Origin: Actinosynnema sp. ALI-1.44
GTDB lineage: Bacteria > Actinomycetota > Actinomycetes > Mycobacteriales > Pseudonocardiaceae
Length of the DNA stretch: 64,000 bases
Assembly: GCF_001984155.1 (NCBI RefSeq)
Contig: NZ_MTQO01000038.1
Coordinates: 1 to 64,000 of the forward strand
Reading direction: 5' to 3'
Position numbers and translations under genes: made by a program. The notes below the pieces were generated by a model. The model did no database searches. It saw nothing but the letters and a program-made list of their open reading frames with translations, and was not told the origin of the DNA. This document shows positions 5,094 through 19,243 of the stretch, piece after piece (positions within the stretch are counted from its first letter, which is position 1; the number at the start of each line of letters is the position of its first letter).

Positions 5094-5546
5094 ATGCGAA
5101 GAGTCCTGCTCGTAGTGTTCATCGCGATCCTCGCCGGGCAACACCCCGCTGTGGCCACGGGGTACCCGCAGGTCGATGCCCGGGTGGAGACGCCCGGCCT
5201 GTTCGACGACGCTGAAGGCGGCAACGCCGACGCCGACGACCCCGCGATCTGGGTGAACGAACGCGACCCCAGCCGCAGCATCGTCTTCGCCACAGCGTCG
5301 AGCCAGGGAGACAACACGTTCGCGGCCTACGACCTGCCGGGAAGATACCGGACATCGTTCCAGGTCAAATACGGCAACGACCTGGTGCAGGAAAGCGACG
5401 GCGCAGCGGTGATCGATACAGGTCTCGGCCCGCGATCCCCCCATGGCCTGCTTGTGGTGCAGGACGGCGACAATTCCGGAGAACCGAGAGACAGCACCAA
5501 CTTCAAGTTCGTCCGCTGGGACGACGTGTCCCATGCGATCCGGTGA
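5094..5546 (+). pseudogene. Internally deleted beta-propeller phytase
   Basis: A 150-aa ORF that joins the two ends of a beta-propeller (BPP) 3-phytase. Residues 1-22 look like a signal peptide. Residues ~38-85 (DDAEGG..ADDPAIWV..DPSRSIV) match the first blade. From about residue 95 (ESDGAAVIDTGLGPRSPHGLLVVQDG, then STNFKFV) it matches the final blade with the conserved DG and NFK motifs. Family members are usually around 400 aa or more, so some 250 residues of the middle propeller are absent, with the frame kept open. A closed propeller cannot form, so phosphate-ester hydrolysis is not expected. Domain recognition is from memory of the family. Confidence 0.7.
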
Positions 5547-8558: not shown

Positions 8559-8574
8559 TCGAACACATGTTCGA
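8559..8574 (+). promoter_or_regulatory. LexA (SOS) box for imuA
   Basis: TCGAACACATGTTCGA is a perfect match to the actinobacterial SOS box TCGAAC-N4-GTTCGA and is identical to the box at 14980. It lies 49 bp before the imuA start codon, implying LexA repression and DNA-damage induction. Confidence 0.92.
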
Positions 8575-8623
8575 GACGCGCCGGCTCCCCACGGCGGTCG
8601 TTCGGTGTGCGGGAGGTGTTCCG

Positions 8624-9379
8624 GTGTCGGGGTCAGCAGTGACGAGAGCGGCGTCGCTGATGTCCGGGGCCATGCCCGACGGGGTGGGAGTGGCCAGCGG
8701 CCTGACCCTGACATCGGTCGACCGGGAACGGGTGCTGCCGGTGAGTCAAGCACTGGCTGGCCTCTTCCCGTGGGGTGGCTTGCGGCGTGGCAGCACGGTG
8801 GCGGTACGCGGGTCCGTCACAGTGCTGCTCGCGCTGCTTGCCGAAGCCACGGCCAGTGGGTCGTGGGCCGGGGTGGTAGGCATGCCGCGACTGGGGGTCG
8901 TCGCCGCGGCGGAACTCGGTGTCGCTGTGTCCCGATTGGCCTTGGTGCCAAGGCCGGGGCCCGATCTTCCCGCCGTGGCCGGGGCATTGCTCGACGGGAT
9001 GGACATCGTGGTGATCGCGGCGGCCGGGCGGTTGCAGGAGTCGCATGCTCGCCGGTTGTCCGCGCGGGCCCGTCATCGGGGCGCGGTCCTCGTCCCGTTC
9101 GGCCCGTGGCCCGGAGCGGACCTGGAACTCACGCACGTCCGCAGCCACTGGGCCGGGCTGGCGAAAGGCTACGGCCACTTCCACAGCCGTGAGCTCACCA
9201 TTGCCGCTCGGGGCAGGGGTTCCGCGGCGCGGCCGACCACGGCAACGGTTTTCGTGAGCCGGGACGGCATGGCGGCCACGCCGACGCCGTTGCCTTCCGA
9301 CGGTGTCTGGCCGCCTGAGACCGGGCCGGTGCCGGTCGAGCCGTCCATGGTGGAAAACGTCACGCGTCTGCGTGCCTGA
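8624..9379 (+). CDS. imuA: ImuA-like mutasome accessory protein
   Basis: A 251-aa protein with a RecA-like layout, as in mycobacterial ImuA'. It has the entry segment GLFPWGGLRRGSTVAV and the C-terminal LTHVRSHWAGL..GYGHFHSRELTI. The Walker A lysine is absent (RGSVTVLLAL where RecA has a P-loop), so ATP binding is not expected. GTG 8624 was chosen because GGGAGG lies 7-8 nt before it; longer in-frame starts run into the LexA box and the GntR gene. ImuA', ImuB and DnaE2 act together in damage-induced translesion synthesis and mutagenesis. ImuB follows after 211 bp. Confidence 0.85.
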   Translation: MSGSAVTRAASLMSGAMPDGVGVASGLTLTSVDRERVLPVSQALAGLFPWGGLRRGSTVAVRGSVTVLLALLAEATASGSWAGVVGMPRLGVVAAAELGVAVSRLALVPRPGPDLPAVAGALLDGMDIVVIAAAGRLQESHARRLSARARHRGAVLVPFGPWPGADLELTHVRSHWAGLAKGYGHFHSRELTIAARGRGSAARPTTATVFVSRDGMAATPTPLPSDGVWPPETGPVPVEPSMVENVTRLRA

Positions 9380-9555: not shown

Positions 9556-9590
9556 TTGACCCGCCGATAAACGGAACCTATGTTCGAATC
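9556..9590 (+). promoter_or_regulatory. imuB promoter overlapping a degenerate LexA box
   Basis: TTGACC (9556-9561), 17-bp spacer, TATGTT (9579-9584). The predicted start of transcription coincides with the imuB ATG at 9591, so the mRNA would be leaderless. CGGAACCTATGTTCGA (9572-9587) matches 10 of the 12 fixed bases of the SOS box and overlaps the -10. A separate 12-bp palindrome ACTCGATCGAGT lies at 9542-9553. Confidence 0.65.
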
Positions 9591-11141
9591 ATGAGAACGG
9601 CGGTGATCTGGTGCCCGGACTGGCCGGTGGTGGCGGCCGCTTCGAGTGCCGGGCTGCCCGTGACGATCCCCATGGCGGTGGTGGCGGCCAACCGGGTGGT
9701 CGCCAGCTCGGCTGTGGCCAGGGCCGAGGGCATCCGGCGGGGCATGCGCCGCCGGGAGGCCCAGGGGCGTTGTCCCGAGTTGGTCGTGTTCGACGACGAC
9801 CCGGTCAGGGACGCGCGGCTGTTCGAGGCGGTCGCGGCGGCGGTGGAGGAGCTGGCCGTCGGCGTCGAGATCGTCCGACCGGGGTTGGTGGCCGTGCCCG
9901 CGCGGGGGCCGGCCGGCTACTTCGGCGGTGAGGAGGCGGCGGCCGAGCGGCTGATCGATCAGGTCGCCGACCGGGTCGGGGTGGAGTGTCAGGTCGGTGT
10001 GGCCGACGGCCTGTTCGCCGCCACCCTGGCCGCGCACCGCGGGGTGCTGGTGGAACCGGGGGCCAGCGCGGGGTTCCTGGCGCCATTGGCCGTCAACGAG
10101 TTGGCGCAACCAGGCGGTCCGGAGCGCACAGAGCTGATCGACCTGTTGCGCCGCCTGGGTTTGCGGACTCTCGGCGCGTTCGCCGGGATCACCGAGCGCG
10201 ATGTGGCCACCCGGTTCGACGCGGACGCGATCCGAGCCCACCGCCTGGCCAGAGGCCTGGACGAACGTCCGCCGTCCAGGCGCAGGCCACCGCCGGACCT
10301 CGCGATCAGCGAGGAGCTCGACCCACCGGTCGACCGGGTGGACGCGGCTGCCTTCGTGGCCAAATCCCTCGCGGACCGATTACACGCGGGCCTGGCCGCA
10401 CACGGCCTTGCCTGCACCCGCTTGGGCATCTACGCGCGCAGTGAGCGGGAGGAGGAGCTGGGCCGCGTCTGGCGGTGCGCGGAACCGTTGACACCCAACG
10501 GAATCGCCGACCGAGTGCGATGGCAACTGGATGGTTGGTTGCGAACCGGCGGACCAACCGCCGGGATCAGGACACTGTGGCTCGAACCTGAGGAGGTAGT
10601 CGAAGGCAAAGCACTACAACTGGATCTATGGCGAGGCGAAGGGCACGCCGAAGCCGGGGAGAAAGCCGGACGGGCCATGGTCCGCGTCCAAGGCCTCCTG
10701 GGCCCGGAATCCGTGTACACGCCAGTACTGGGCGGTGGCCGCGACCCCGCCGAGCGCGTGCGGCTGGTGCCGTGGGGCGAGGAGCTCACCCCGGCGGCAG
10801 ACCCGGACCTCCCCTGGCCAGGGCAGCTCCCCGCGCCATCACCGGCGGTGGTGTTCCCCGACCCGGTCCCCGTGACCGTCGTCGACAAGACCGGCGAGCC
10901 CGTCCGAGTGACGGACCGCGACCTGCTCACAGCAGACCCCGCAACGGTAGGCGTCAACGGCGCCCCACCCCGCCCGGTGACCGGCTGGGCAGGCCCATGG
11001 CCGGCCAACGAACGCTGGTGGGCAAAGGAAACCCGCTGCCAAGCCCGAATCCAGGTCCTCATCGGCACCGAACCGGCCCAAGCCGCCCTCCTCCTCGCCT
11101 ACCACGAGGGAGCATGGACAGCACACGCCCACTACGACTGA
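9591..11141 (+). CDS. imuB: ImuB, Y-family polymerase-like mutasome hub
   Basis: A 516-aa Y-family (UmuC/DinB) homologue. The N terminus reads RTAVIWCPDWPVVAA, the ImuB signature in which the first catalytic Asp of true Y-family polymerases is missing, so it is a pseudo-polymerase. A beta-clamp-binding-like peptide QLDLW lies at about residues 343-347, and the conserved DLPWPGQLPAPSPA occurs near residue 410. In mycobacteria ImuB bridges ImuA', DnaE2 and the clamp. ATG 9591 was preferred to ATG 9552, which lies inside the promoter. Confidence 0.9.
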   Translation: MRTAVIWCPDWPVVAAASSAGLPVTIPMAVVAANRVVASSAVARAEGIRRGMRRREAQGRCPELVVFDDDPVRDARLFEAVAAAVEELAVGVEIVRPGLVAVPARGPAGYFGGEEAAAERLIDQVADRVGVECQVGVADGLFAATLAAHRGVLVEPGASAGFLAPLAVNELAQPGGPERTELIDLLRRLGLRTLGAFAGITERDVATRFDADAIRAHRLARGLDERPPSRRRPPPDLAISEELDPPVDRVDAAAFVAKSLADRLHAGLAAHGLACTRLGIYARSEREEELGRVWRCAEPLTPNGIADRVRWQLDGWLRTGGPTAGIRTLWLEPEEVVEGKALQLDLWRGEGHAEAGEKAGRAMVRVQGLLGPESVYTPVLGGGRDPAERVRLVPWGEELTPAADPDLPWPGQLPAPSPAVVFPDPVPVTVVDKTGEPVRVTDRDLLTADPATVGVNGAPPRPVTGWAGPWPANERWWAKETRCQARIQVLIGTEPAQAALLLAYHEGAWTAHAHYD

Positions 11142-12937: not shown

Positions 12938-14899
12938 ATGATCCGCAGCCCCTTCGATGACCTCGCCGACTACGTCAAACTGCCGCGCAACGGCTCGCCA
13001 CGGCTGTCGCCGGATGGCCGCAGACTCGTCTACACGGTTGCCGTGCCCGACGAGAAGAAGAACCGGTACGTCACCTCCTTGTGGGAGGTCGACTCCGGTG
13101 GTGAACACCCGGCCAGGCGGCTCACCTGGGGCGCCGAAGGCGAGGCAAACCCCGCGTGGACGCCGGACGGTGACCTTCTGTTCACCGCCAAGCGGCCGAG
13201 TGACCAGGACAAGGCCGCGCTGTGGCTGCTGCCGTCCGGCGGCGGGGAGGCGCGGCAGGTCGTGGCGCCGTCCGGCGGCATCGACGATGTCCGGGTCAGC
13301 GACAGCGGCACGGTCGTGATCTGCTCGCCGCTGCTGCCGTCCGCCACGGATCCCGAGCACGACAAGGAACTCCGTGAGCTGCGGGACGATGCCGGGATCA
13401 CGGCCATCCTGCACGAGGAGTACCCGATCCGGTACTGGGACCGGCACATCGGACCGGACCGGCGTCGGCTGCTTGTCGTCGAGGACAACGGGTTGCGGGA
13501 CCTGACCGGGCACGTCGGCCGTGCGCTGGACAGCAACGAGACCGGTTGGGACATCTCGGCTGACGGTTCGACGGTCGTCGCGGGCTGGCTTGTCGCGGAG
13601 GCCACCGGTCACCAGCGCAGCACTCTCGTCGCCATCGACGTCGCCACCGGTGACCGCCGGGTGCTGGCCGACAATCCGGACTACGAGTACGTTTCGCCCG
13701 CGATCTCCCCGGATGGCACGCACGTCGCGGTGGTGATCCTGCGGCGCTCCGCTCCCGATGAGGTCTTCGACCGCTGGCTCGCCGTCATTCCGCTCGGTGG
13801 TGGCGATATGCGGCCGCTCGCCGGGGAATGGGACCGCTGGCCACGGGATCCGCTGTGGACGACGGATGGCCGGTCCCTCGTCGTCGTCGCGGACGACAAC
13901 GGCCGGGCGCCGCTGTGGCGCGTCGACGTCGAGACCGGTGAGCCGACGAGGTTGACGCCGGACGACGGGGCATACACCGACTTCCAGGTCTCCCGGGACG
14001 GGCAGTGGGTCTACGCGTTGCGTTCGGCCGTGGACAGCCCGCCGTCGCCGGTCAGGATCGCGCTGGACAGGTCCACAGTGGAGCGTCTGGCGGAACCGGA
14101 TTACGAGGTTCCGGGACGACTCGAGGAAGTCACCACCACAGCGGCTGACGGGACCACTGTGCGTGCGTGGATCGCGTTGCCGCAGTCGACGGAACCCGCT
14201 CCGCTGCTGCTGTGGATCCACGGCGGCCCGTACATGACGTGGAACGCGTGGACGTGGCGCTGGAACCCGTGGCTCGCGGTCGCACGCGGGTACGCCGTGC
14301 TGCTGCCCGACCCCGCGTTGTCGTCGGGTTACGGGACGGAGTTCATCCGCCGGGGCTGGGCGAACTGGGGTGGTGCGCCGTTCACGGACCTGATGTCGAT
14401 CACCGACGAGGCGCTGGAACGGCCGGATGTCGACGCGAGCCGGACCGCCGCCTTGGGCGGGTCGTTCGGCGGTTACATGGCCAACTGGGTGGCCGGGCAC
14501 ACCGACCGGTTCGACGCGATCGTCACCCACGCCTCGCTGTGGGCGATGGACCAGATGCTCTCGACCACCGACATGGCGTTCGACTTCACGCGGGAGATGA
14601 CCGATGCGGACGCCGAAGCCAATTCACCGCACCGGTCGGCCGACGCCATCAGCACGCCGATGCTGGTGATCCACGGCGACAAGGACTACCGCGTGCCGAT
14701 CGGGGAGAGCCTGCGGCTGTGGTGGGACCTGTCGTCGCGGGCAAAGGCCGACAGCCCGCACAAGTTCCTCTACTTCCCCGACGAGAACCACTGGATCCTC
14801 AAACCGAATCACACGATGGTGTGGTACTCGACTGTCTTCGCGTTCCTGGCCCAGCACGTGCTCGGGCAGCCGTGGCAGCGCCCGGAAAACCTGGGCTGA
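12938..14899 (+). CDS. S9 family serine peptidase (acylaminoacyl/oligopeptidase type)
   Basis: A 653-aa protein with no signal peptide. The N-terminal ~390 residues form a beta-propeller with WD40/TolB-like repeats (SPDG, WTPDG and WTTDG units). The C-terminal alpha/beta hydrolase carries the nucleophile in GGSFGGY (Ser509), Asp583 in HGDKDYRVP and His618 in DENHWIL. It should hydrolyse short peptides or acylated N termini in the cytosol. It is divergent from the MerR gene with a 66-bp shared control region, and a strong terminator follows. Confidence 0.93.
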   Translation: MIRSPFDDLADYVKLPRNGSPRLSPDGRRLVYTVAVPDEKKNRYVTSLWEVDSGGEHPARRLTWGAEGEANPAWTPDGDLLFTAKRPSDQDKAALWLLPSGGGEARQVVAPSGGIDDVRVSDSGTVVICSPLLPSATDPEHDKELRELRDDAGITAILHEEYPIRYWDRHIGPDRRRLLVVEDNGLRDLTGHVGRALDSNETGWDISADGSTVVAGWLVAEATGHQRSTLVAIDVATGDRRVLADNPDYEYVSPAISPDGTHVAVVILRRSAPDEVFDRWLAVIPLGGGDMRPLAGEWDRWPRDPLWTTDGRSLVVVADDNGRAPLWRVDVETGEPTRLTPDDGAYTDFQVSRDGQWVYALRSAVDSPPSPVRIALDRSTVERLAEPDYEVPGRLEEVTTTAADGTTVRAWIALPQSTEPAPLLLWIHGGPYMTWNAWTWRWNPWLAVARGYAVLLPDPALSSGYGTEFIRRGWANWGGAPFTDLMSITDEALERPDVDASRTAALGGSFGGYMANWVAGHTDRFDAIVTHASLWAMDQMLSTTDMAFDFTREMTDADAEANSPHRSADAISTPMLVIHGDKDYRVPIGESLRLWWDLSSRAKADSPHKFLYFPDENHWILKPNHTMVWYSTVFAFLAQHVLGQPWQRPENLG

Positions 14900-14915
14900 C
14901 CAGCGTGAACACCCG

Positions 14916-14948
14916 GAGGGGCCCTCGTGCGCCGCACGAGGGCCCCTC
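14916..14948 (+). terminator. Strong hairpin terminator after the S9 peptidase gene
   Basis: Perfect 15-bp stem (14916-14930 with 14934-14948, loop GCC) 17 bp after the stop codon. It insulates the peptidase gene from the SOS promoter that starts 4 bp later. Confidence 0.85.
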
Positions 14949-14951
14949 GAC

Positions 14952-14987
14952 TTGACCAAGGTGACCCGTAGGGACATACTCGAACAC
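14952..14987 (+). promoter_or_regulatory. Rightward SOS promoter
   Basis: TTGACC (14952-14957), 17-bp spacer, CATACT (14975-14980). The last base of the -10 is the first base of the LexA box, and the predicted transcription start falls at 14987/14988, on the ATG of the small ORF. The -35/-10 pair orients the otherwise symmetric LexA site to the plus strand. Confidence 0.6.
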
Positions 14988-14995
14988 ATGTTCGA
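14980..14995 (+). promoter_or_regulatory. LexA (SOS) box upstream of dnaE2 region
   Basis: TCGAACACATGTTCGA, a perfect SOS box identical to the one at imuA. It covers the predicted start of transcription and the ATG of the 55-aa ORF, so LexA binding should block that promoter. Confidence 0.9.
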
Positions 14996-15155
14996 GCACT
15001 TCTCTTCGTTGTACCGGTCGGACCGGGACATGGCCCAGGACCTCCTCACCGAGTTGATCCCGAGGCAGCGTCCGCCGATGGAGGATCAGCCGCCGAAGTT
15101 CTGGGGTCCGGGCGGCGGTGGGTATCCGGGTCCTGCCGACGCGGACTTGAAGTAG
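14988..15155 (+). CDS. Candidate SOS-induced leaderless small protein
   Basis: A 55-aa ORF whose ATG lies inside the LexA box and at the predicted +1 of a rightward promoter. Third codon positions are strongly G/C as in real genes of this window. Residues 1-35 look helical and charged (MFEHFSSLYRSDRDMAQDLL..), followed by PRQRPPMED and a Gly/Pro tail. It has no signal peptide or membrane segment. The last 70 bp overlap the 3' end of the minus-strand gene at 15086. No known family was recognised; a role with ImuA/ImuB/DnaE2 is inferred from regulation and position only. Confidence 0.5.
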   Translation: MFEHFSSLYRSDRDMAQDLLTELIPRQRPPMEDQPPKFWGPGGGGYPGPADADLK

Positions 15156-15829
15156 GCGTTCGAGTCCTGCTGGAACAGGAAGAACAGCGTCGCGCCCAGC
15201 GCGGCGACCTGGACCAGCGAGAAGATCAGCAGCACCGCGCCGAAGCCGCCGCCGACGGTGAACAGCAGGCCGAGGCTGAACAGGCCGATCAGCCCGAGCA
15301 GCGCGCCCAGCCCGCTGAGCACGGCCAGCACGATCCGGGCCCACTCCGCGCCGTTGCGCATCATCACCGAGATGACGAACAGGCCCGCGCAGATCAGCAG
15401 GCCGAAGACCGTGGCACCGCCGTTGTAGAACCCGCCGAAATAGCTGGAGAACATGATCGCGTAGACGATGTAGTACAGCGCGCTGATCAAGGCAGCCCCT
15501 GCGGACAGCAGGAAAGCCCAGATCACGCTCTTGGGCACGGGCAGCGTCGGCCGGTTGCCGCCGGTGCCCCAGTTCGCGCCGATCCCGGTGAACTTCATCG
15601 CGAAGCCGGGGACATCGGGGGTCTTGGGGTGCGCGCCACCACCGGCATGGTGGTTGCCGTAAGGCTGCTGGGGCTGGCCGTAAGGCGGTTGTGGCTGACC
15701 GTACGGCGGCTGCTGGTCGTATGGCTGTTGGCCGCCACCTTGCGGCTGGCCTTGTCCGGACGGCCCCTGACCATACGGGGAGCCGCCGGGTTGGCCCGGC
15801 TGGTACGGGCCCTGCGGGTGCTGAGTCAC
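15086..15829 (-). CDS. Proline-rich membrane protein of unknown function
   Basis: A 247-aa protein. The first ~85 residues are Pro/Gln/Gly/Tyr-rich with repeated PYGQ and QPPYGQPQ units. Residues ~125-225 hold four hydrophobic helices, and the end is the Pro-rich PGYPPPPGPQNFGG. The architecture resembles the DUF5336-like protein at 605, without clear sequence identity. GTG 15829 was chosen because upstream codons have no such composition and would overlap dnaE2. It is divergent from dnaE2 across 108 bp. Confidence 0.75.
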   Translation of the reverse strand: MTQHPQGPYQPGQPGGSPYGQGPSGQGQPQGGGQQPYDQQPPYGQPQPPYGQPQQPYGNHHAGGGAHPKTPDVPGFAMKFTGIGANWGTGGNRPTLPVPKSVIWAFLLSAGAALISALYYIVYAIMFSSYFGGFYNGGATVFGLLICAGLFVISVMMRNGAEWARIVLAVLSGLGALLGLIGLFSLGLLFTVGGGFGAVLLIFSLVQVAALGATLFFLFQQDSNAYFKSASAGPGYPPPPGPQNFGG

Positions 15830-15937
15830 GGCTGGACGGTAAACGCGTGACGCTGTGGGAAAAAGGGTTTCGGGTCCCGATTGGACCAAAGTCTGCCCGG
15901 TCGGGCAGTGTGGCCCGGTAACCGGAAGTGGAGCGAC

Positions 15938-18900
15938 ATGGGGTGGAACAACCCGCCGGTCCGCTGGACGGAACTGGAACGAGCCTTGTCCGGCAAGCCT
16001 TTCCAGAACGGCGACGGCGGTGACAGTCCAGCGTGGACCCATCACCGCGAACCGTACACCCGGCCACCGGGCATCGGCCTGCCCGGTGCGACCGACCACC
16101 CCGGCGAGGAACGGGTGCCGTACGCCGAACTGCACTGCCACTCCAACTTCAGCTTCCTCGACGGCGCCAGCCACCCGGAGGAGCTGGTGGAGGCGGCGGC
16201 GCTGCGGGGCCTCGACGCGATCGCGATCACCGACCACGACGGCATGTACGGCGTGGTCCGGTTCGCCGAGGCGGCAAAGGAACTCGGTGTGCGCACGGTG
16301 TTCGGCACCGAGCTGAGCATCGGCTTGCCCGCGCCGCAGACCGGCGTGCCCGACCCGGTCGGCGAGCACCTGTTGCTGCTGGCCCGCGGGCTGGACGGGT
16401 ACACCCGGCTGTGCCGGGCGATCAGCGCAGGGCAGCTCGCCGGTGCCGAGAAGGGCCGTCCGGTGTACGACCTCGCGCAGGTGGTCGACGTGACCAAAGG
16501 TCATTGTGTCGCACTCACCGGCTGCCGCAAGGGTCCTGTGCGCCGCGCGCTGGACGCCGGTGGACCGTCGGCGGCGGCCGAACGGCTCGGTCAACTCGTC
16601 GACATGTTCGGCAAGGACAGCGTCGTCGTCGAACTGACCGACCACGGCATGCCGGGGGACAGCTTCCGCAACGACGTGCTGTCCGGGATGGCGGCCGAGT
16701 TCGGGCTGCCGACGATCGCGACCAACGCGGTGCACTACGCGCAGCCCGACCGTGCCCGTCTGGCGGCTGCCATGGCCGCCGTGCGGTCGCGCAAAAGCCT
16801 GGACGAGATGGCCGGTTGGCTACCGCCCGCGACCGCGTACCTGCGGTCAGGGGCCGAGATGCTCGAACGGTTCGAGCCGCGTTACCCCGGCGCCGTGCAG
16901 CGGGCCGCGGTGCTCGGCGTCGAGCTCTCGTTCGATCTGCGTCTGGTGGCGCCGAAACTGCCGCCGTTCGACGTACCGCCGGGGCACACGGAGGACTCGT
17001 ACCTGCGGTACCTGACGTACAAGGGCGCGGCAGGCCGCTACGGCCCGCCGGACGGCAACGCCAGGGCGTACGAGCAGATCGAGCACGAGCTGCGTGTGAT
17101 CGAGGAACTCGGGTTCCCCGGTTACTTCCTGGTGGTGTGGGACATCGCCCGGTTCTGCCGGGAGAACGACATCCTGTGCCAGGGCCGTGGTTCCGCCGCG
17201 AACTCGGCGGTCTGCTACGCGCTCGGCATCACCGGAGTCGACGCGGTCGCGCACGACCTGCTGTTCGAACGTTTCCTCGCGCCTGCCCGTGACGGTCCAC
17301 CGGACATCGACCTCGACATCGAGTCCGACCGCCGCGAGGAGGCGATCCAGTACGTCTACCAGAAGCACGACCGCTGGTGTGCGGCGCAGGTCGCGAACGT
17401 GATCACGTACCGCGCCAAGTCGTCGGTCCGGGACATGGCGCGTGCGCTCGGGTACTCGCCCGGCCAACAGGACGCGTGGAGCAAACAGATCGACCGCTGG
17501 GGCCCGGTCCGCGACACGGTCGGCGAGAACGACCACGACATCCCCGGTGTCGTGCTCGACCTGGCCGGTCAGATCGAGGGGTTCCCGAGGCACCTCGGCA
17601 TCCACTCCGGTGGCATGGTGATCTGCGACCGGCCGGTCGGCGAGGTGTGCCCGATCGAGTGGGCGCGGATGGCCGACCGCTCGATCCTGCAGTGGGACAA
17701 GGACGACTGCGCCGCGATCGGGCTGGTCAAGTTCGACCTGCTCGGCCTCGGCATGCTCTCCGCGCTGCACTACGCGATCGACCTGGTGCGCGAGCACGAG
17801 GACATCGACGTGGACATCGCCAACCTCGACCTGAACGACCGGAACATCTACGACATGTTGTGCGAAGCCGACTCCATCGGCGTCTTCCAGGTGGAGAGCC
17901 GCGCGCAGATGGCCACGCTGCCCCGGCTGAGGCCGGAGAAGTTCTACGACCTCGTGGTGGAGGTGGCACTGATCCGGCCCGGTCCGATCCAGGGCGGGTC
18001 GGTCCACCCGTACATCCGCAGGAAGAACAAGAAGGAGGACGTCACCTACGACCACCCGCTGCTGGAACGCGCGCTGGAGAAAACCCTTGGTGTGCCGTTG
18101 TTCCAGGAGCAGCTGATGCAGATAGCCGTGGACGTCGGCGGTTTCGACGCGGCCGAGGCGGACGAGCTGCGCAGGGCGATGGGCGCGAAGAGGTCGACCC
18201 GCCGGATGGAACGCCTGCGTGAGCGGTTCCACGAAGGCGCTGCGGCCAAAGGGATCACCGGTGAGCTGGCCGAGCGGATCTACTCGAAACTGCTGGCGTT
18301 CGCCAACTTCGGTTTTCCCGAGAGCCACGCGTTGAGCTTCGCGCACCTGGTTTTCGCCAGCTCCTACTTCAAGTACTACCACCCCGCCGCGTTCTGCGCC
18401 GCGTTGTTGCGCGCCCAGCCAATGGGTTTCTACTCGCCGCAGTCCCTGGTCGCCGACGCGCGCAGACACGGCGTAGAGGTGCGCGGGCCGGACATCAACG
18501 CCAGCCTCCCGCACGCGACGCTGGAGCGCACCGACGCGAAACCCGCTGTCCGGCTGGGAATCGGCGCGATCCGTACGATCGGCCAGAAGCCCGCGGCCGC
18601 GATCGTCGCCGAACGGCAGGCGAACGGCCCCTTCAAGAGCATGACCGACCTGGCCCGGCGGGTTCAGCTGACCACCGCACAGGTCGAGGCGCTGTCCACG
18701 GCGGGTGCCTTCGGCTGCTTCGGGGTCAGCAGGCGAGCGGCGCTGTGGTCGGCCGGTGCCGTGGCGGGCGACCGGCCGGACCGGTTGCCGGGAACGACGG
18801 CGAGCGCCGCCGCGCCGACCCTGCCGGGGATGGACGCGGTCGAGCTCGCGGTGGCCGACGTATGGGCGAACGGCCTGTCACCGGACAGCTTCCCGACCCA

Positions 18901-19243
18901 GTTCGTCCGCGACCACCTCACCGGGCTCGGCGCGTTGCCTGTGGCAGAGCTCTCGGCTGTGAAGTCGGGAACCCGGATCCTCATCGGCGGCGCCGTCACC
19001 CATCGCCAGCGGCCGGCGACCGCGGGCGGGGTGACGTTCCTGAACATCGAGGACGAGACCGGAATGGTGAACGTGGTGTGCTCACCAGGTTTGTGGGCAC
19101 GCTACCGCCGGGTCGCCCGAGGCAGCGCGGCCATGCTGGTGCGTGGAATCGTCGAGAACGCCGAAGGTGTGATCAGCCTGCAGGCCGATCGCTTGCAGAA
19201 CCTGGACTTGCGCATCCCGTCGAAGTCCCGCGACTTCCGGTGA
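15938..19243 (+). CDS. dnaE2: Error-prone DNA polymerase III alpha subunit DnaE2
   Basis: A 1101-aa C-family polymerase of the DnaE2 type, shorter than replicative DnaE1. It begins with the typical MGWNNPPVRWTELERAL leader. A PHP domain follows (ELHCHSNFSFLDGAS), then the polymerase core with catalytic acidics in PPDIDLDIESDRR and the GRGSAANS and HLGIHSGGM motifs. After these come a helix-hairpin-helix region and an OB fold near the C terminus. It performs damage-tolerant, mutagenic synthesis with ImuA/ImuB. GTGGAG precedes the ATG. No LexA box is visible in the 108 bp immediately upstream; the nearest is at 14980. Confidence 0.95.
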   Translation: MGWNNPPVRWTELERALSGKPFQNGDGGDSPAWTHHREPYTRPPGIGLPGATDHPGEERVPYAELHCHSNFSFLDGASHPEELVEAAALRGLDAIAITDHDGMYGVVRFAEAAKELGVRTVFGTELSIGLPAPQTGVPDPVGEHLLLLARGLDGYTRLCRAISAGQLAGAEKGRPVYDLAQVVDVTKGHCVALTGCRKGPVRRALDAGGPSAAAERLGQLVDMFGKDSVVVELTDHGMPGDSFRNDVLSGMAAEFGLPTIATNAVHYAQPDRARLAAAMAAVRSRKSLDEMAGWLPPATAYLRSGAEMLERFEPRYPGAVQRAAVLGVELSFDLRLVAPKLPPFDVPPGHTEDSYLRYLTYKGAAGRYGPPDGNARAYEQIEHELRVIEELGFPGYFLVVWDIARFCRENDILCQGRGSAANSAVCYALGITGVDAVAHDLLFERFLAPARDGPPDIDLDIESDRREEAIQYVYQKHDRWCAAQVANVITYRAKSSVRDMARALGYSPGQQDAWSKQIDRWGPVRDTVGENDHDIPGVVLDLAGQIEGFPRHLGIHSGGMVICDRPVGEVCPIEWARMADRSILQWDKDDCAAIGLVKFDLLGLGMLSALHYAIDLVREHEDIDVDIANLDLNDRNIYDMLCEADSIGVFQVESRAQMATLPRLRPEKFYDLVVEVALIRPGPIQGGSVHPYIRRKNKKEDVTYDHPLLERALEKTLGVPLFQEQLMQIAVDVGGFDAAEADELRRAMGAKRSTRRMERLRERFHEGAAAKGITGELAERIYSKLLAFANFGFPESHALSFAHLVFASSYFKYYHPAAFCAALLRAQPMGFYSPQSLVADARRHGVEVRGPDINASLPHATLERTDAKPAVRLGIGAIRTIGQKPAAAIVAERQANGPFKSMTDLARRVQLTTAQVEALSTAGAFGCFGVSRRAALWSAGAVAGDRPDRLPGTTASAAAPTLPGMDAVELAVADVWANGLSPDSFPTQFVRDHLTGLGALPVAELSAVKSGTRILIGGAVTHRQRPATAGGVTFLNIEDETGMVNVVCSPGLWARYRRVARGSAAMLVRGIVENAEGVISLQADRLQNLDLRIPSKSRDFR

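Follow-up and report, generated by a model that had tools for sequence, protein, structure and literature searches.

A candidate leaderless, LexA-repressed microprotein gene near dnaE2, a possible divergent member of a mutasome-linked small-protein family in Pseudonocardiaceae

The ImuA'-ImuB-DnaE2 mutasome (actinobacterial ImuA2-ImuB2-DnaE2A type) has been described as an assembly of three proteins. As far as the accessible parts of these sources go, ImuB acts as a hub, with binding to the clamp and presumed binding to both ImuA' and DnaE2 (PMC10421592), and DnaE2 and ImuB have been modelled with their main contact formed by the PHP domain and the C-terminal barrel of ImuB (PMC12926913). According to the latter, other mutasomes use small subunits, including UmuD', YqjX/YolD and shortened 'arm-only' variants, which have been modelled to act via a short unstructured segment inserted into the polymerase (PMC12926913). 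No fourth small protein is named for the ImuA'-ImuB-DnaE2 complex in the accessible parts of three papers (PMC12926913, PMC6511836, PMC10421592), and no description in print of a small protein between imuB and dnaE2 was found in the literature at hand, which comprised main texts, mostly of openly readable articles rather than subscription papers or preprints, and no supplements.

Here, we present a comparative analysis of a 55-codon open reading frame (the microORF) from Actinosynnema sp. ALI-1.44 (Pseudonocardiaceae). The window is the whole stretch of DNA that was analysed, i.e. 64,000 nucleotides of contig NZ_MTQO01000038.1, in which imuA', imuB and dnaE2 all lie within 11 kb (Table 1). The microORF shares with these mutasome genes both the locus and the predicted LexA control, and its product would come in addition to the three proteins described. 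Small size and LexA control also recall SidA, YneA, SosA and ChiZ/DivS, which are SOS-induced small division inhibitors with a membrane segment and, in some of them, a LysM domain.

Table 1. Features of the mutasome locus and of the microORF region in the window
Feature	Position	Strand	Basis or remark
Further perfect LexA box, covering the start codon of imuA'	8559..8574		Identical to the microORF box
imuA' (NF058630), start ATG inside its own LexA box	8567..9379	+	NCBIfam match
imuB promoter TTGACC-N17-TATGTT	9556-9584	+	Ends 6 nt before imuB ATG 9591; by eye
LexA-type box CGGAACCTATGTTCGA, two outer mismatches	9572..9587		Within the imuB promoter
imuB	9591..11141	+	Domain match
-35 element TTGACC	14952..14957	+	Unchanged in 8/8 genus members
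-10 element CATACT	14975..14980	+	Unchanged in 8/8 genus members
LexA (SOS) box TCGAACACATGTTCGA	14980..14995		Overlaps the end of the -10 element and the start codon; perfect in 8/8 genus members
Putative microprotein gene (microORF), 55 codons, stop ends at 15155	14988..15155	+	Genus conservation, profile match
Conserved core MFEHFSSLYRSDRDMAQDLLTELIPRQR, codons 1-28	14988-15071	+	Alignment of genus members
LIPRQR motif, codons 23-28, putative equivalent of the operon-ORF [LIV][IV]Px[PQ]R	15054..15071	+	HMM alignment
Membrane-protein gene, convergent, no Pfam/NCBIfam hit	15086..15829	-	3' end overlaps the 3' third of the microORF; beside dnaE2 in 8/8 genus members
dnaE2, error-prone polymerase	15938..19243	+	Domain match

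The dnaE2 start lies 782 nt downstream of the microORF on the same strand, with one opposing gene between them, an arrangement found in all eight Kibdelosporangium/Actinocrispum genomes, the source genome included (hereafter, the genus members). The initial annotation had located the microORF between two mutasome components, a loose description: dnaE2 is indeed nearby, but imuB ends at 11141 and MerR and S9 peptidase genes intervene. As judged by eye, the box-on-start layout is common to the microORF, imuA' (MFE start at 8567) and imuB. The product of imuA' likewise begins with MFE inside an identical box, its start codon being part of the operator, but the residues that it has in common with the microprotein are the box-encoded first ones only. 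An Rfam scan of the window returned 0 matches, hence no known structured leader RNA. Elsewhere in the source genome, two further DnaE-type polymerases (G000:C49:643239-645980 and G000:C51:456589-459330), 33-35% identical to DnaE2, are perhaps two replicative alpha subunits.

From the letters alone, the initial annotation had proposed a perfect SOS box, a -35/-10 pair and an ATG at 14988 so stacked that the predicted transcription start is the start codon, and these elements were all recovered and found conserved across the genus members (Table 1). The pair TTGACC-N17-CATACT is the sole sigma-70-type match in 14700-16200 (1 found versus 0.1 expected in shuffles). The ATG sits inside the LexA box, 8 nt past the -10 element, where transcription is expected to start (7-8 nt past it), and no Shine-Dalgarno-like sequence was seen by eye ahead of it; as predicted from this layout, the transcript should be leaderless. 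An alternative 67-codon frame from TTG 14952 exists and is unlikely, because its start would fall inside the -35 element. LexA sites of the TCGAAC... type have been measured in Streptomyces venezuelae (accessible part of PMC9380542). The 15-base string CGAACACATGTTCGA occurs in 201/390 Pseudonocardiaceae genomes, its read-backwards control in one row. A LexA-type pattern allowing one mismatch, run over the whole genome, matched 1546 times versus 423 for the control pattern, and was discarded as too loose for a regulon list.

Judged by its pattern of conservation, the 55-codon frame is a real gene, in agreement with the coding status initially assigned to it. It was found in 8/8 genus members with 80-100% identity, and frame and LexA box, whose joint conservation had been singled out in the initial annotation as a point to check, are kept together in all of them; an unconserved frame, which would have refuted the initial annotation, is not what was found. 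The conserved unit, codons 1-28, reads MFE.FSS...SDRDMAQDLL.ELIP.QR and is followed by a glycine/proline-rich remainder that differs in length among the genus members and lies across the antisense membrane-protein gene; past codon ~33 conservation is not independent, because the codons there overlap the 3' end of that gene. Codons 4-28 lie outside both the antisense gene and the box, save the last box base in codon 3, and their variable sites among genus members are distributed over codon positions 1/2/3 as 5/4/13, with a dN/dS of ~0.085 (mean dN 0.054, mean dS 0.63, the inputs being those of the 28 pairs with positive dS).

The microprotein matched 0 families at E<=1 in Pfam and NCBIfam, and a search of the named genome collection gave 7 loci, in the same taxa only. 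With the full 55-residue protein as a single-sequence query, 378/390 Pseudonocardiaceae genomes returned something at E<=10; the matches beyond the eight genus members and Amycolatopsis taiwanensis, the best of which (E 3.8e-4) lies inside a 422-aa frame, were treated as chance. In Amycolatopsis taiwanensis (L042/L013, contig C38), a degenerate microORF lies beside the membrane-protein gene; it is cut off by a TAG following codon 27, its box spacer is 2 nt short and no dnaE2 adjoins it. The dnaE2 of this species is elsewhere, near a contig end, so placed that its upstream region is not readable. A record titled Rhodococcus rhodnii (L044, JOAA01000002.1) carries a Kibdelosporangium-type locus, and its title looks wrong.

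In other Pseudonocardiaceae genera, imuB is often directly upstream of dnaE2, often with a short ORF between them, and reading these loci revealed a new family of small ORFs behind imuB in 21 of the 38 other genera read (22/39 counting Kibdelosporangium/Actinocrispum). These ORFs end in a [LIV][IV]Px[PQ]R-R-S-P-E-N-like motif and usually stand just before dnaE2. A small ORF with the motif follows imuB in 44 of the 84 readable non-genus dnaE2 loci (18/37 genera), examples being MQDEYWDLLETLIPLPRKAPEQGI (L113, 24 aa), MAHEEDPATVLDWWDLVDLAALIPEQRRSPEDGPEWR (L184) and MIHDEEFADWVDLIDLAELIPEQRRSPENRLPG (L106), and measures 24-92 residues in these 44 loci and 135 in one further genome. Its start overlaps the imuB stop in 37/44, while its end lies within -10..+13 of the dnaE2 start in 38/44 and overlaps that start in 18/44, a spacing to both neighbours that, as read from the sequence, is that of co-translated partners. 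Two cases, present in no profile, surfaced only via the whole-genome profile search: in one g33 genome, a GTG start overlaps the imuB stop and the ORF ends in LEALIPVPRRSPENPG just before dnaE2 (two other g33 loci read, L130 and L134, are without a small ORF), and in one g17 genome a 135-aa ORF begins right behind imuB and ends in VVVPAPRRPLDDAPVDG, more than 500 nt from dnaE2. In g23, the small ORF stands behind imuB in 4/4 and dnaE2 has moved away with its own box. The motif is also kept where the ORF lies 468-901 nt from dnaE2 (L105, L106, L111); since it persists at a distance in these loci, in g17, in g23 and in Kibdelosporangium, the small ORF is not merely a ribosome-binding leader of dnaE2. 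A LexA box was found within ~0.8 kb ahead of the imuA' match in all 19 relatives examined further, 17 of which carry the small ORF; L259 and L260 have the box before imuA' and are without the small ORF.

The distribution of this family is patchy and, in our sample, bounded to Pseudonocardiaceae. At the loci read (which include 60 loci, and later 14 more, hand-picked from search lists; L146, too short to read, was left out), 17/38 other genera are without the small ORF, with imuB abutting dnaE2 or another spacing without the motif, and the mutasome can therefore work without the small protein. Where no small ORF is present, ImuB or DnaE2 might carry the motif as a fusion; a search of 680 ORFs from 28 family loci gave no hit, the lowest E being 0.07. 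Outside Pseudonocardiaceae, the profile found nothing comparable (3159 ORFs from 64 loci, lowest E 0.19), and the motif was absent <=600 nt before dnaE2 in 48 loci, save three low-complexity strings in L209, and <=800 nt behind imuB in 16 loci. Seven members of the small-ORF family searched against Pfam and NCBIfam gave one irrelevant weak Pfam hit (E 0.15), the family being in neither database.

Several loci showed particular arrangements. In three (L292, L293 and L294, in G057, G066 and G068), the operon is largely eroded: the LexA box, the beginning of imuA', a remnant of the imuB C-terminal part and an intact small ORF are left, and dnaE2 is missing from the locus; no dnaE2-grade match exists genome-wide in G057 and G066, G068 lying outside that sample. 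Because imuA' and imuB look largely eroded there, these loci are neutral on the tie between small ORF and dnaE2. Second dnaE2 copies in G389 and G329 (L152, L161) have no small ORF just upstream and carry their own LexA-type box, and G220 has a second imuB (G220:C16:10157-11722). In genus g11 (L149-L151, L153, L155), the small protein appears to hold two motif copies, AIPVQR and FVPxPR.

Profiles built from these small ORFs without any Kibdelosporangium/Actinocrispum member singled out the window frame among the 691 ORFs of the window. It ranked 1st with the 41-ORF profile (E 0.005/0.0084; next 0.21/0.29), which included gaps of 50-420 nt only and from which L160, L162, L163, L167 and L168, gap ORFs without the motif, had been dropped by eye, again with the 44-ORF profile, which three more distant cases had joined (E 1.6e-4/0.0073; next 0.18/0.34), and with the 48-ORF profile (E 9.6e-4; runner-up 0.015). 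In the seven sister loci, all 7 matches at E<=0.05 among 1214 ORFs were the seven orthologues. None of 100 column-shuffled profiles reached E 0.005 (best 0.084), and one of the 100 ranked the window frame first. The aligned part of the window frame is the motif region only, ~20 residues, in which LIPRQR is present and RPPMED takes the place of the motif's RRSPEN half. A 25-row family profile searched against the 390 whole genomes gave 110 genomes at E<=0.01, none of them among the eight genus members (18/607 first-look own-genome candidates scored), and the weaker of these 110 hits are probably chance. Because this whole-genome search missed the genus members at that threshold, homology of the window frame rests on the targeted tests and on context. 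With these combined, we hold with good confidence that the frame is a divergent family member, recognised by its place and a short motif.

Unlike the small ORFs elsewhere, the microORF is not directly behind imuB (six genus members checked), and no small ORF with the motif was found behind imuB in the window. One of these six loci (L037, in G218, a genus member) has a motif-like PLIPAPR string at 5494-5530, which follows the imuB stop after 10 nt and, by eye, has no start codon in its frame. Chance alone would give ~0.13 such strings per locus, and this one is either chance or a remnant of the original small ORF; in the latter case, the microORF would be a second copy, not a relocated original.

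Taken together, the reading we favour, with reasonable rather than high confidence, is that 14988-15155 is a leaderless LexA-repressed gene and a divergent, relocated member of the small-protein family of the Pseudonocardiaceae imuA'-imuB-small-dnaE2 SOS mutasome. It draws directly on the coding selection, on the conservation of box and promoter, on the family context with its linkage to imuB/dnaE2 and on the profile match. A rather unlikely alternative is that box and promoter mainly serve dnaE2, through an SOS transcript from 14988 that crosses the membrane-protein gene antisense and reaches dnaE2 ~0.8 kb on, the microORF being a leader peptide or a leftover of the old operon. In 8/8 genus members, the 250 nt upstream of dnaE2 contain no LexA box; further upstream on the dnaE2 strand, the first perfect box is that of the microORF, at 887-982 nt in the five genus members measured. 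This absence is unusual, because where dnaE2 has no imuB in the stretch read before it, an exact GAACN4GTTC box stands <=120 nt from dnaE2 in 11/18 loci outside the family and in 9/12 readable loci inside it. Furthermore, the box palindrome itself is the only terminator-like site found on the + strand from the microORF box to dnaE2. Since dnaE2 has no LexA box of its own in this genus, the microORF promoter may also reach it by read-through. Against this alternative, a mere leader is not expected to show coding selection on its peptide, the transcript would need putative read-through of an opposing gene, and dnaE2 may have a promoter of its own in a conserved element directly ahead of it. The palindrome CTGCCCGGTCGGGCAG (15893-15908) and the preceding GGACCAAAGT, which lie between the membrane-protein gene and dnaE2, are largely conserved in 8/8 genus members and could be an operator or promoter, either for dnaE2 or for the divergent gene. 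In this genus dnaE2 may depend either on the microORF promoter, across the opposing gene, or on its own conserved upstream element, and the read-through and microprotein-gene readings can both hold.

The remaining alternatives fare worse. Overlaps with the imuB stop and the dnaE2 start, as counted above, are what would be seen if the small ORFs acted only in cis, coupling imuB to dnaE2 translation through a peptide whose sequence hardly matters; yet the motif is common to 21 other genera and persists in ORFs distant from dnaE2 (L105, L106, L111, g17, g23), which makes a purely cis role in dnaE2 translation unlikely, and coupling is impossible in Kibdelosporangium/Actinocrispum, so that we regard this explanation as improbable. 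Still less probable is an SOS-induced inhibitor of cell division or of a checkpoint, with a function resembling that of SidA, YneA, SosA or ChiZ and near dnaE2 by chance: SOS control and small size would fit, but the 55 residues contain, by eye, no membrane segment nor any long hydrophobic run, there is no LysM or other domain, and homology and position point to imuB/dnaE2. Of the role in translesion synthesis or checkpoint control initially suggested, the first half gains support from the non-genus imuB-ORF profiles, which pick out the frame; the checkpoint half finds none, the frame showing neither a membrane segment by eye nor a Pfam/NCBIfam domain. Finally, the frame could be no gene at all, held open by the conserved LexA promoter and the antisense membrane-protein gene, given that its last third overlaps that gene and its first codons are dictated by the box. 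This non-gene reading is strongly disfavoured: in codons 4-28, free of both constraints save one box base, 13 of the 22 variable sites are third positions and dN/dS is 0.085, and the family profile match also speaks for a gene.

Under the favoured reading of a relocated mutasome small-protein gene, the microprotein is probably a small subunit or clip of the ImuA'-ImuB-DnaE2 complex. From the sequence evidence we infer its expression, leaderless start, helix, binding partner and function, including any effect on mutagenesis. In Kibdelosporangium/Actinocrispum, the operon would have been broken up, with imuA', imuB and the small gene each under a LexA promoter overlapping its own start codon. 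RecA-driven LexA cleavage would then lead to the small protein being made along with ImuA', ImuB and DnaE2, from its own LexA promoter in this genus and in step with ImuB in operon-type species. Its LIPRQR-type linear motif and short helix-prone segment would most likely dock on ImuB, at the C-terminal barrel, or on DnaE2, and the docked protein would help to build the translesion complex or to tune it, in the way that small subunits do for other mutasomes. UmuD' and YqjX/YolD offer a likeness in being small proteins encoded beside their Y-family partner. However, neither the microprotein nor the seven family members match YqjX, YolD or UmuD in Pfam/NCBIfam, or show a recognisable domain or arm; the operon small ORFs also differ from YqjX/YolD in carrying their conserved segment at the C-terminal end, and their partner would be the inactive ImuB or DnaE2. 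Extended to the whole family, and proposed here tentatively, as something we lean slightly against rather than towards, the mutasome would have a fourth subunit, short and for the most part disordered, that acts as a clip through a LIPxPRRSPEN-type motif and in Kibdelosporangium has been split off with its own leaderless LexA promoter, so that its dose would be set separately and the same SOS transcript may feed dnaE2.

Open questions in damage-induced mutagenesis include what holds ImuB, ImuA' and DnaE2 together and how they are regulated. A small protein encoded beside imuB or dnaE2 in about half of one family's genera, and in none of the other families sampled at the loci scanned, constitutes a natural experiment on these questions, and a peptide this short could be deleted, mutated or used as a probe. 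The case also illustrates how such genes escape notice: they may have only 24 codons, overlap the genes on both sides, or be leaderless. For these Pseudonocardiaceae, the microprotein may be a missing part of the error-prone DNA-copying machinery.
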